Below are positions 72-56,241 of a stretch of DNA of 64,000 bases, one piece after another; the stretch's first letter is position 1, and every line of letters starts with the position of its first letter. Under the pieces are notes generated by a model that was not told where the DNA came from, did not search any database, and was given only the letters and a program-made list of their open reading frames with translations. Where the stretch lies: assembly GCF_009730915.1 (NCBI RefSeq), contig NC_052495.1:434001-498000 (forward strand), in the 5' to 3' direction. The position numbers and the translations under genes are program-made. The DNA comes from Dioscorea cayenensis subsp. rotundata (taxonomy: Eukaryota; Streptophyta; Magnoliopsida; Dioscoreales; Dioscoreaceae).

Positions 72-2718
72 CTACTCCAGAGCTGGTTGTGCAGAGCTCT
101 GGCCATATCCACCTCCACCCCGACCAAATCCTGGACGACCACCAGTGCCCTGTGAATAATACATAACAAGCGAAGTCAGGGATTTTTGTATCCTAATAAT
201 AGAAATTTTGTTTGCTAAATGGCACAATGATAAATCCTTAGAAAAGCATGTGCTGCAAAATACAACTCATTGCCCACAAATTACATTTGTGTCCATTGGC
301 AAAACATGGTTAACTCAAGGCGGAAATGAAACTGAGGTATGCAACACAAAATCACATGGCATGGAGATGGTCAACAGATACATATTTGTCAAGCAAGGGA
401 AAAAAAATGTCTATATATCAATAAGACATGGCTAAACAATATTCACATTTGACTACTAGCAACAGAAAATGCTCATATGCAAATAAATGAATGAAAGATC
501 CATCAGAGTTGGATTGGAAGTCATCCTGGACAGAGTGTCTCAGATGACCGTCGTGATGTAATTTCTCATCACTTGGACTAAAGAACCGCATGGCATAGAG
601 ATGAAAAGTTTAGTTCATTGGACAAAAGACAGGGATTTGCAAGCAGGAGAAAATTTTTGTCTATATATCTACAAAACCCAACTGAATAATATTTACTCCA
701 TTTTAACTTTCAAATTTGACTACTAGCAACAGAATTTTCACAAGCTAATAACAGAAGGAAAGACCCATCAGAGTTGGATTGAAAATCATCTTGGACAGAG
801 TCTATCTCAGATGACCGTCGTGATGTAATTTCTCATCACATGGTTTATTTCCTTCCTAGCTTGTAAATGAGGTAACAGAGAAAAAGGTGTCAAAATTGGA
901 ATGGCAAGATAATTGCGAAAGGGAAACAACAATAGAGAAAAAGAAAAAAAAATTGACAGTGAAACATTGGTAAAAGCATATTCTTTCCAAGCCCGCGTTG
1001 ATGCTCACTCAAATGACATGACAATCGCAATACATAATAGAGAGAGCAGTGGTGATGGACAATTCCATCACTTGATGATATTGGAAACAAAGACAAATAG
1101 GCAACTGATACTCTGCTAGTACCAATATTCACCACTTATGATTAACAATATGGCAATATGATACCAGACCTTTTCATGCTATCTGAACCTACACCAATCA
1201 ATTTATGGAAAGATAAATAGAAGAATTGTACCAAAAAAAATTCCATGGGAAGCTACAAACAACCCAGTGTTTTGGTAAGGTATCAAAAGAAATCCAAACT
1301 AAAGCAGAGTGTATAACATGAAAAAGAAAAGGCATGGCACTGCATGGGATCAGACTGACGTGCAATGCTTCATCAGAACTATCTGAAATAAGACAGCCTC
1401 TGATATAATGATACTTATCATTGGCATCATTTCCCAAAAACAATGCAAATAAATAAATACATAAAATAATTTACAGCAATAAACAACAGAAGTGTAATAT
1501 GACTTCCCCTATCGGATTATGTGTCTGGGAATGCATTACTAGTTATGCGGCACACAGAATGTAACAGCATTTAACTGGCATCAAGATGATCACAAGGCAG
1601 CAATGCTATTGAACCAAACAAGGCTATCAAGGATTTCAATGACCACATAGGCCACATATACCTCTAAAACATCAACTAGATTGTACATATATAAATAGAA
1701 GAGTTGCAAGTGGCATTTACCAAGGATAACTAAAAAGAATAATGTAAAAAAATAATCAAATCAAAATTTGAACCTTCAAAAGAATAAAGGCAAGTCGAAG
1801 AAGATTACAACAAGAGGTCTTACCCTAAACGATGGCTGAAACTCTGGCGGAGCACCACCCTTGTCACCACCAAAATCACCACCTCCACGAGGACCCCCGC
1901 GGTAGCCATCCCTATCTCCAAACCTCGGCCTGTCTCCTTCGAAACGCGGGGGACCCCTATAAAATACAATAAATTGATCCAAATATCAACAGAAAGTTAG
2001 AAACAAGCAACAAACAACAAACAACATAACAAACAAATAATGCAACGAAAAATGCAATATATAAAGTGCTTCTATCATATGAACAGAACTAAGAAAAAGA
2101 ATTGATCTTTAGAGCAGGCATTCTTGTTTTCAACCGATTAAAAAAGAAACCCACAAACTACACCACGATAAATCACCATAAAGAACAATGAAAGACCAAT
2201 ACCTAGGGCGGTCTCCAGGAGGACCGGATCCAAAGGGGCGGGAGGGAGCCTTAGAGGACTTCTTAAGAGTCGCAGGGACGATCTCAGATGGGAGATTGAG
2301 AAAAGTGCGAAGAAACTCAATACCGTCATTGGTGAGGTACCAGTAGTAATGCATCCACGCAAAGGTCTCCCGAACATACTCCCTCGATTTGAAGCTCTGC
2401 ATCAGCTTAATGACCTGCAGGTTGGGCACATCGATAAGCGGGTGCTTCTCAAGGTTGTAGTCCTTCTTCGCGTATAGCACCCCCTCTGCAACACCAAACC
2501 AAAGAAAACCATCTCAGAACCAAAACCCTAACCCTAAATGGATTAAAAATAGAGAAAAAGAGAGGAAAGGAGACAAAGGTGATACCTTGGAAGAGGTATT
2601 TGCAAATTTCATGGCGGTTCTTCTTAGAAATGATCTACAAAATGGATAGAAAAATCGCCATTAGAGAAAGGGACATCAAGAGAAGCAATGAAAACCCTAA
2701 CCCTAGTTTGCTCACCAT
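72..2718 (-). CDS. RPS10: 40S ribosomal protein S10 (eS10)
   Basis: Component of the 40S ribosomal subunit. Five coding exons on the minus strand: 2716-2718, 2586-2634, 2203-2485, 1824-1956 and 72-149, giving 181 residues, the normal plant length. The N-terminal winged-helix region is clear ([13 protein letters not shown], then [14 protein letters not shown] and [16 protein letters not shown]). The tail is the plant Gly/Arg-rich segment ([26 protein letters not shown]) ending QPALE. All introns are GT-AG and the phases close exactly. Exon 1 carries only the ATG, followed at once by the GTGAG donor. The last intron, 1,674 nt, is long for this gene and contains three snoRNA candidates. Upstream lie a TATA box, a telo-box and three site II motifs, the usual set for plant ribosomal protein genes. 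Confidence 0.96.
500..576 (-). ncRNA. C/D-box snoRNA, copy 1 (SNORD35-like guide)
   Basis: On the minus strand, inside the last RPS10 intron and in the sense of the host gene. Box C GTGATGA is at 566-572, box D' CTGA at 540-543 and box D CTGA at 503-506, and the ends can pair (TCCA with TGGA). The element before D' is TCACGACGGTC, complementary to GACCGTCGTGA of 25S rRNA. The element before D is CAATCCAAC, complementary to GTTGGATTG, about 45 nt upstream in the same rRNA region. These rRNA sequences are recalled, not searched. As I recall, the GACCGTCGTGA site is also targeted by human SNORD35. A second copy lies about 270 nt away. Confidence 0.82.
764..843 (-). ncRNA. C/D-box snoRNA, copy 2 (tandem duplicate)
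   Basis: Second copy of the same snoRNA in the RPS10 intron. Box C GTGATGA is at 833-839 and box D CTGA at 768-771, with a D' CTGA between them. Both antisense elements (TCACGACGGTC and CAATCCAAC) are unchanged, while the spacer between them has drifted and the short terminal stem uses different bases (ACCA with TGGGT). Guides conserved against a changing background is what selection on a functional guide RNA would leave. Confidence 0.8.
1346..1435 (-). ncRNA. C/D-box snoRNA candidate (25S guide TTGCACGTCAGT)
   Basis: Also in the last RPS10 intron, sense to the host. Box C reads ATGATGC (1424-1430), one base off consensus, with a C'-like CTGATGAA inside and box D CTGA at 1350-1353. The ends form a GGGA/TCCC stem directly outside boxes C and D. 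The 12 bases before box D, TTGCACGTCAGT, are a full complement of ACTGACGTGCAA in plant 25S rRNA (recalled sequence). By the D+5 rule the methylated base would be the second A of ACTGA. About 90 nt long, within the C/D range. Confidence 0.68.
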
Positions 2719-39244: not shown

Positions 39245-39277
39245 ATGACGGCTGAAGATCGCCGGAGAAGACACTAA
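39245..39277 (+). promoter_or_regulatory. uORF overlapping the ERF start (TAATG)
   Basis: ATG...TAA encodes MTAEDRRRRH. Its stop shares one base with the main ATG (TAATG, 39275-39279). This geometry permits termination-reinitiation coupling. Confidence 0.6.
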
Positions 39278-40608
39278 TGGCAGCGGAAGAAGGAGAAGAA
39301 AATCATGATATGCATGGAGAGTTATATAACATGATGGACGTGTATAGGAATGAGCATGAGATGTCAGTCATGGTTTCAGCTTTGACTCATGTTGTTTCCG
39401 GTGAGCCGGAGTTTGGTGGTGGTGGTGGTGGTTTTGTTGGAGCTCCGGTGAGCTCTGGTTTCATTGATACTGTTACTACTGTCTCTTCTTCTTCTTCTTC
39501 TATTACTACTACTAGTGCTTTGAGTTTAAGGAATAAGAGAACAAGGGAGATGGAAGCAGTGCAACAGTTTGATATGAAGTATTATTTAGAGAGTTTTGGA
39601 GAGTTTGGTGGACATGCAGGGGATTCTTCTTCTTTTTCATCATCATGTTCTTCTTCAATGGTTGCAGGTATGCATGTAAACATAGTTAGTTCTAACTTAA
39701 ATTAGCACTGTTTTATTGTTTTTACTTCATGTTTAGCACATCAAAATAAATATGATTTACTTGAAAGATAAAAAGAGACAAAAGTAGTTAGAGAATGATA
39801 AGCTGCCAGATGACTTTATTACTTTAAATTCACATGCTTCACTGTTTCATTGAACTCTTTCTCTTTTCTCTTTACAAGAAGACAATCTCATTCTAACTTC
39901 TCCATTTGTTTTCTTATGCATACATTATCACAAACCAAATATATATAAAAAAATTGGTTTCCTCTGTTTATTATCATTATTGCAGCAGCAGCAGCAAAAG
40001 AACAAAACCAAGAAAGCATGCAAACAATATCACAAGTAACATCATCTTCAGAAGAAACATGCAACAAAGAACAAGTCCAACAAGAAAGAAGAAGATACAG
40101 AGGAGTACGGCAACGTCCATGGGGAAAATGGGCAGCTGAGATTAGAGATCCTCATAAAGCTACTCGTGTTTGGCTTGGAACTTTTGAAACTGCTGAAGCT
40201 GCTGCAATGGCTTATGATCAAGCTGCTCTTCGTTTCCGTGGAAACAGAGCTAAACTTAACTTCCCTGAAAATGTTCATCTTTATCCCACTCCTCTTCTTC
40301 CACTTCCTTCTTCTTCTTCTTCTTCTTCTTCTTCTTCTTCTTCTTCTTCTTCTTCTCTTTTTCATTTTCACACTTCTTCTCTCCCACCTCCTACTCCTCT
40401 TCTTGACCAGTTATGGAATCCAAATCCAGTGTTGATTACTACTACTACTACTGCTACTGCTTCTTCTTCTTCTTCTTATGATGATGATGATGGGGGTGCT
40501 CTGTTTTACATGCAAACAGAGCAGCAACAGCAGCAGAGAGGGGGGATTTCATTTTCAAGAAGACCTCCATGGCCATGGTCTTCAAGCTTTCCACCACCTT
40601 CTCAATAG
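39277..40608 (+). CDS. AP2/ERF transcription factor
   Basis: DNA-binding factor of 337 residues from two exons, 39277-39667 and 39986-40608. One AP2 domain at about residues 168-225 begins [19 protein letters not shown] and ends [14 protein letters not shown]. The Ala and Asp in WAAEIRD mark the ERF rather than DREB class, so GCC-box binding is expected. The domain with basic QERRRYRGV flanks, an intron before the domain and a divergent N-terminus resembles group X (ABR1/ERF110-115), but that placement is tentative. Low-complexity Ser, Gly and Thr runs surround the domain, including a run of about 18 Ser encoded by a TCT microsatellite at 40303-40360. The intron acceptor is a four-fold NAG repeat. 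Nuclear. Confidence 0.92.
40303..40360 (+). repeat. (TTC/TCT)n coding microsatellite
   Basis: Nearly pure trinucleotide run inside exon 2 of the ERF gene, read as polyserine and therefore likely to vary in length. Confidence 0.92.
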
Positions 40609-43521: not shown

Positions 43522-43538
43522 GCTGGAGTAGCTCAGTT

Positions 43539-43571
<33 letters not shown>

Positions 43572-43595
43572 AAGGTTCAAGCCCTTCCTCTAGCG
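43522..43595 (+). tRNA. trnN-GUU: tRNA-Asn (anticodon GTT)
   Basis: A 74-nt cloverleaf with no intron. The acceptor stem GCTGGAG/CTCTAGC pairs over 7 bp with one G-T wobble. The D arm holds AGCTCAGTTGGTTAGAGC, the anticodon loop CTGTTAA with GTT, and the T arm GAAGG-TTCAAGC-CCTTC. Discriminator base G. Box A and box B (GGTTCAAGC) are intact, and a T run follows about 25 nt downstream. The sequence closely matches plant nuclear tRNA-Asn as recalled. Confidence 0.96.

Positions 43596-53705: not shown

Positions 53706-56241
<2,536 letters not shown>

Follow-up and report, generated by a model that had tools for sequence, protein, structure and literature searches.

The fourth intron of a gene for ribosomal protein eS10 (RPS10) in Dioscorea cayenensis subsp. 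rotundata holds two tandem copies of a box C/D small nucleolar RNA (snoRNA), assigned by its guide to the U35 type. Each copy carries two antisense elements, one ahead of box D' and one ahead of box D, that pair with places close together in the 25S ribosomal RNA (rRNA). Read from their letters, these twin U35-type snoRNAs probably guide methylation at both C2960 and G2918 (Arabidopsis numbering). The copies lie in a window of 64,000 nucleotides, positions 434,001 to 498,000 of contig NC_052495.1 (C25:434001-498000), taken from a 584-Mb assembly of 2249 contigs. All coordinates below are those of the window.

Anatomy of the two copies

498..579, minus strand: C/D snoRNA copy 1 (U35 type, RF00328); cmscan 40.1 bits, E-value 1.3e-5 in 2.9 kb, gathering 45
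566..572, minus strand: copy 1 box C, GTGATGA; from the sequence, assigned by eye
546..556, minus strand: copy 1 D' antisense element TCACGACGGTC; 11 bp to 25S, D+5 = C2960
540..543, minus strand: copy 1 box D', CTGA; from the sequence
521..526, minus strand: copy 1 box C'-like, GGATGA; from the sequence, assigned by eye
508..516, minus strand: copy 1 D antisense element CAATCCAAC; 9 bp to 25S, D+5 = G2918
503..506, minus strand: copy 1 box D, CTGA; from the sequence
577-574 with 502-499, minus strand: copy 1 closing stem, 4 bp, TCCA with TGGA; from the flanks, by eye
763..846, minus strand: C/D snoRNA copy 2 (U35 type, RF00328); cmscan 42.3 bits, E-value 3.3e-6 in 2.9 kb, gathering 45
833..839, minus strand: copy 2 box C, GTGATGA; from the sequence, assigned by eye
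813..823, minus strand: copy 2 D' antisense element, same as copy 1 (TCACGACGGTC); from the sequence
807..810, minus strand: copy 2 box D', CTGA; from the sequence
786..791, minus strand: copy 2 box C'-like, AGATGA; from the sequence, assigned by eye
773..781, minus strand: copy 2 D antisense element, same as copy 1 (CAATCCAAC); D+5 = G2918
768..771, minus strand: copy 2 box D, CTGA; from the sequence
843-841 with 767-765, minus strand: copy 2 closing stem, 3 bp, CCA with TGG; by eye

Both copies have the layout of the box C/D class. Box C (RUGAUGA) and box D (CUGA) stand near the ends, with D' and C' internal, and C' is degenerate in each (GGATGA in copy 1, AGATGA in copy 2). Both elements place the base to be methylated opposite position 5 upstream of D or D', as box C/D guides do.

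The original prediction had placed two minus-strand copies at 500-843, inside an intron of RPS10. The boundaries now drawn (579-498 and 846-763) differ from those by only a few bases, and the copies lie in the fourth intron of an eS10 gene of plant type. Boxes C, D', and D can indeed be read from the sequence of both copies, the closing stems, at 4 bp and 3 bp as read by eye, are short, and the two antisense elements are the same in each. To that description are now added the U35 (RF00328) identity, box C', and snoZ122, a further snoRNA of the same intron.

Family identity and occurrence in the genome

Both copies match the Rfam family RF00328 (snoZ161_228) across model positions 1-93 of 93. 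A table in PMC3511168 equates AtU35 with RF00328 and places it in clan CL00056, alongside human U35 and yeast snR73. The putative label "U35 type" rests here on the guide, not on the Rfam score.

An Rfam scan of the whole window, accepting E-values up to 0.05, gives four matches: the two copies (7.4e-5 and 2.8e-4), snoZ122, and a tRNA. At the default cut-off, the scan lists neither U35-type copy. Across the whole assembly, RF00328 is found at two places, which are these copies, both under the cut-off (55 of 118582 first-look candidates were scored). The D' element followed by CTGA within 2-4 bases occurs twice in the window and not once in 100 shuffles. A search of the 584-Mb assembly for guide-NN-CTGA, letter for letter, hits these two places and no others; a reversed control gives 0. 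Another, diverged U35 copy may be present in the assembly.

The pattern of guide and box was also met in viral contigs, in 14 stretches. None of the 14 has RTGATGA in the preceding 35 bases, and these were judged to be chance.

Pairing with 25S rRNA

The target used here is a segment of L001, a contig from IMG/VR; the first ~83 bases of this contig fit the Rfam consensus of eukaryotic large-subunit (LSU) rRNA. The pairing rests on this LSU segment rather than on a full-length 25S gene from the plant itself. Eukaryotic rRNA pieces of this kind (L001, L002, L003) were seen in the IMG/VR contig and in supposed bacterial metagenome-assembled genomes (Mucilaginibacter, Ignavibacteria), where they are probably contamination or misassembly.

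Counting from the box, positions 3-13 of the D' element form 11 Watson-Crick base pairs with the target, and position 5 falls on the first C of GACCG. Positions 2-10 of the D element, in both copies, form 9 Watson-Crick pairs, and position 5 falls on the first G of TTGG. When Arabidopsis numbering is laid on the segment, the listed base is present at 9 of 9 mapped methylation sites (A2912, G2918, U2922, G2923, A2935, A2947, C2949, U2954, and C2960). Because the numbering fits at all of these, the predicted bases are C2960 for D' and G2918 for D. G2918 is the upstream one, and U2922 and G2923 of the A-loop follow it within a few bases. The mark of U35, the guide for 25S C2960 (yeast C2959), is present in both copies as TCACGACGGTC before D'.

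This agrees with the original prediction, which matched both elements to LSU rRNA and named the C in GACCG and the G in GTTGG. Aligned to 25S rRNA, these are C2960 and G2918, each a methylation mapped in other plants. The distance of "about 45 nt" given for the targets was nearly right; the predicted methylated bases lie 42 nt apart.

PMC11542601 lists Gm2918 and Cm2960 for Arabidopsis, tomato, and tobacco, and equates Arabidopsis C2960 with yeast Cm2959. In PMC8053127, methylation of G2918 and C2960 is detected in Arabidopsis by RiboMeth-seq, C2960 is assigned to U35, and 100 of 104 assigned Arabidopsis sites have at least 9 consecutive pairs. PMC3511168 gives Cm2949 as the AtU35 site and Cm2956 as the snR73 site. 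Its numbering is taken to be an older one, shifted by 11, because its AtU29 site, Am2936, is A2947 in PMC8053127; its Cm2949 is then taken to be a different base from C2949 of PMC8053127, a site listed there under SnoR69Y.

The plant's own assembly offers 25 matches to ribosomal DNA (rDNA), of which four were examined (L020-L023). Both target segments are intact in L021. In L020 the D' target is intact and the D target differs at its final base only; L022 differs at that same base and also once within the D' target. In L023 the D target is intact, and the change falls at the C2960 position itself. On the contig of L021, Rfam finds only a piece of small-subunit rRNA, with no LSU above the cut-off. 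The four look like diverged rDNA relics.

How often might such pairing arise by chance? With matches counted on the target segment and with Watson-Crick pairing only, at any of the nine sites, a duplex as long as the one observed is formed by 2 of 200000 shuffled D' guides. For shuffled D guides the figure is 48 of 200000 (letters of copy 1) or 28 of 200000 (letters of copy 2). A run over seven of the nine sites gave 2/200000 for D' and 31/200000 for D. As a feature of the sequence, the putative D' guide is beyond doubt; the putative D guide is shorter, yet good.

Duplication and drift

The copies are spaced by 265-267 bp. Their best local alignment joins 576 to 368 (copy 1) with 843 to 619 (copy 2), and therefore the duplicated unit extends past the snoRNA by ~130-145 bp on the downstream side. 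Identity between copies, counted over aligned columns with gaps excluded, is 72/78 for the snoRNA versus 82/106 for the downstream flank (Fisher p 0.008). By stretch, identity is 14/14 for box C, 19/19 for the D' guide with its box, and 15/16 for the D guide with its box, where the sole change falls outside the 9-base D element. The original prediction held that the rest of the duplicated unit had drifted. This is so for the flank, but the snoRNA has changed too. That the snoRNA is less changed than its flank, in a single sequence pair, suggests selection.

A 26-nt likeness to box C and the start of the guide was noticed at 1049-1074 on the minus strand, with no D' or D box seen alongside. When a single 121-nt piece was shuffled 500 times, its score of 28 was never reached; among 400 resampled 850-1342 sequences, 2 reached it. 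The likeness may be the remnant of a third, degenerate copy or may be chance; a third copy is not claimed.

The host gene and its intron

72..2718, minus strand: eS10 (RPS10) coding region, 5 exons, 181 aa; borders hand-set, frame open
2718-2716, 2634-2586, 2485-2203, 1956-1824, 149-72, minus strand: eS10 exons, which splice to 181 aa
150..1823, minus strand: host intron 4 of eS10, 1674 nt, GT..AG
1343..1438, minus strand: third C/D snoRNA, snoZ122 (RF00343), in eS10 intron 4; cmscan 51.5 bits, gathering 38

The spliced product matches the Pfam family S10_plectin (PF03501) at 142.1 bits. Its top match among solved structures is 4v7e_BK, "40S ribosomal protein S10E", at 343.9 bits. The top six structure matches range from 305 to 344 bits, and the scores show no marked fall until 192.7. 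These six are presumably plant chains (the match table is without species), and because they are taken as such the gene is labelled "plant-type eS10".

Intron 4 carries three C/D snoRNAs, the two U35-type copies and snoZ122. In the last, at 1438-1343, the letters ahead of the final CTGA are TTGCACGTCAGT. Sets of intronic C/D snoRNAs within ribosomal-protein genes are a layout common in kind.

Proposed function and its alternatives

In the proposed mechanism, the copies would be released from eS10 intron 4 and would assemble with fibrillarin into C/D small nucleolar ribonucleoproteins (snoRNPs). The D' element would then direct 2'-O-methylation at the conserved U35 site, 25S C2960. The D element would direct 2'-O-methylation at 25S G2918. 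We infer, for this plant, the transcription, the processing, the assembly with fibrillarin, and the methylation of both sites. The predicted methylation of C2960 by the copies is well supported, from family and guide; that of G2918 is supported, from the exact D+5 fit. The interpretation given in the original prediction is likewise supported.

Several observations weigh against this account. The RF00328 scores, 42.3 and 40.1 bits, are short of the curated gathering of 45. The closing stems are short (copy 1 has 4 bp, copy 2 has 3 bp) and absent from the lowest-energy folds. The copies fold with z-scores of -2.36 and -2.03, with 4/200 and 8/200 shuffles folding at least as well, but in the lowest-energy fold of each copy the guide's first letters, CATCAC, pair with box C and the open C/D form is not seen. 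The active C/D form is set by the snoRNP proteins, and because of this the fold result weighs little either way. The D duplex is just 9 bp, mismatched on either side. When G-U pairs are allowed and every position of the 100-nt target is counted, shuffled guides attain the observed lengths in 184/20000 (D') and 1646/20000 (D) cases. In PMC8053127, the snoRNAs credited with Arabidopsis G2918 are SnoR34 and SnoR6.3, and U35 is not among them.

That assignment favors an account where U35 methylates C2960 only, the D element is an extra pairing that holds the substrate, and G2918 is served by a snoRNA of the SnoR34 or SnoR6.3 type. Another G2918 guide may, after all, be present in the genome. Such a division of labor is unlikely, however, as in both copies the D element stands next to a perfect CTGA and its D+5 position falls precisely on a base with a mapped methylation. 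It might also be supposed that only one copy is used, the other being a decaying pseudogene; the 3-bp closing stem of copy 2 would fit decay, as would the 6 of 78 aligned columns and the one 2-base gap that set the copies apart. Against this, neither copy shows damage to box C, D', or D or to either antisense element, and the snoRNA differs less than the flank (72/78 versus 82/106). Decay of one copy is thus rather improbable, and even were it so, the dual-guide reading could still hold for the remaining copy.

Chance resemblance, with no snoRNA at all, can point to RF00328 scores just below the Rfam cut-off. It would have to account for a guide and D' box found in 0/100 shuffles and at only two places in 584 Mb, for the whole-window E-values, for a duplicated unit with unchanged guides, and for an above-cut-off C/D snoRNA (snoZ122) within the same intron. 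It is scarcely credible.

If the twin snoRNAs do guide both methylations, then a single snoRNA, present as an intronic tandem pair, covers two sites in the peptidyl-transferase region for which Arabidopsis uses separate snoRNAs. This would be a clear plant example of fixed methylation sites whose guides are reshuffled among snoRNAs. C2960 and G2918 flank A-loop bases of the large-subunit rRNA. Tentatively, U35 in this plant lineage could have taken over G2918 by gaining a second guide, a history for which the chances seem slightly less than even. The double guide may be common to a whole plant group. Nothing is new in the snoRNA family, in either methylation site, or in the kind of host; no description of U35 also guiding G2918 was found in the literature searched, and it may be recorded elsewhere. 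For annotation, the lesson is that plant U35 copies just under the Rfam cut-off escape a default scan.

Other features of the window

A second ribosomal-protein gene is suggested by an open reading frame (ORF) at 53999-54433 (minus strand) that resembles, by eye, part of ribosomal protein uL3 (RPL3). On the plus strand, an ORF at 40018-40608 has an AP2/ERF-like stretch, also by eye. The ORF just upstream of it, at 39277-39705 (plus strand), may belong to the same gene (39277-40608). A tRNA-Asn (GTT) gene lies at 43522-43595 (plus strand).

Comparison with known systems

With plant U35 (snoZ161_228, RF00328), the copies have in common box C and its surroundings, the D' guide UCACGACGGUC, boxes D' and D, and the target C2960. 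They differ from the RF00328 consensus in being eight letters shorter between box C and the guide. On the D side they carry CAATCCAAC, the element for G2918; the consensus as printed, which is the reference for this comparison, has other letters there. Two tandem copies are present here, whereas the Arabidopsis table of PMC8053127 does not give U35 the sign by which it shows that a snoRNA has several gene variants.

Arabidopsis SnoR34 and SnoR6.3 are assigned to the same site, G2918, yet are listed as distinct snoRNAs; SnoR34 is also assigned to 18S U1273. Arabidopsis SnoR19, SnoR22, U24, U36, SnoR44, and SnoR29 likewise combine, in one snoRNA, two antisense elements for two near sites (PMC8053127). 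The sites of these six dual guides are 11-18 nt apart, versus 42 nt here. The spacing is wider; the principle is the same.
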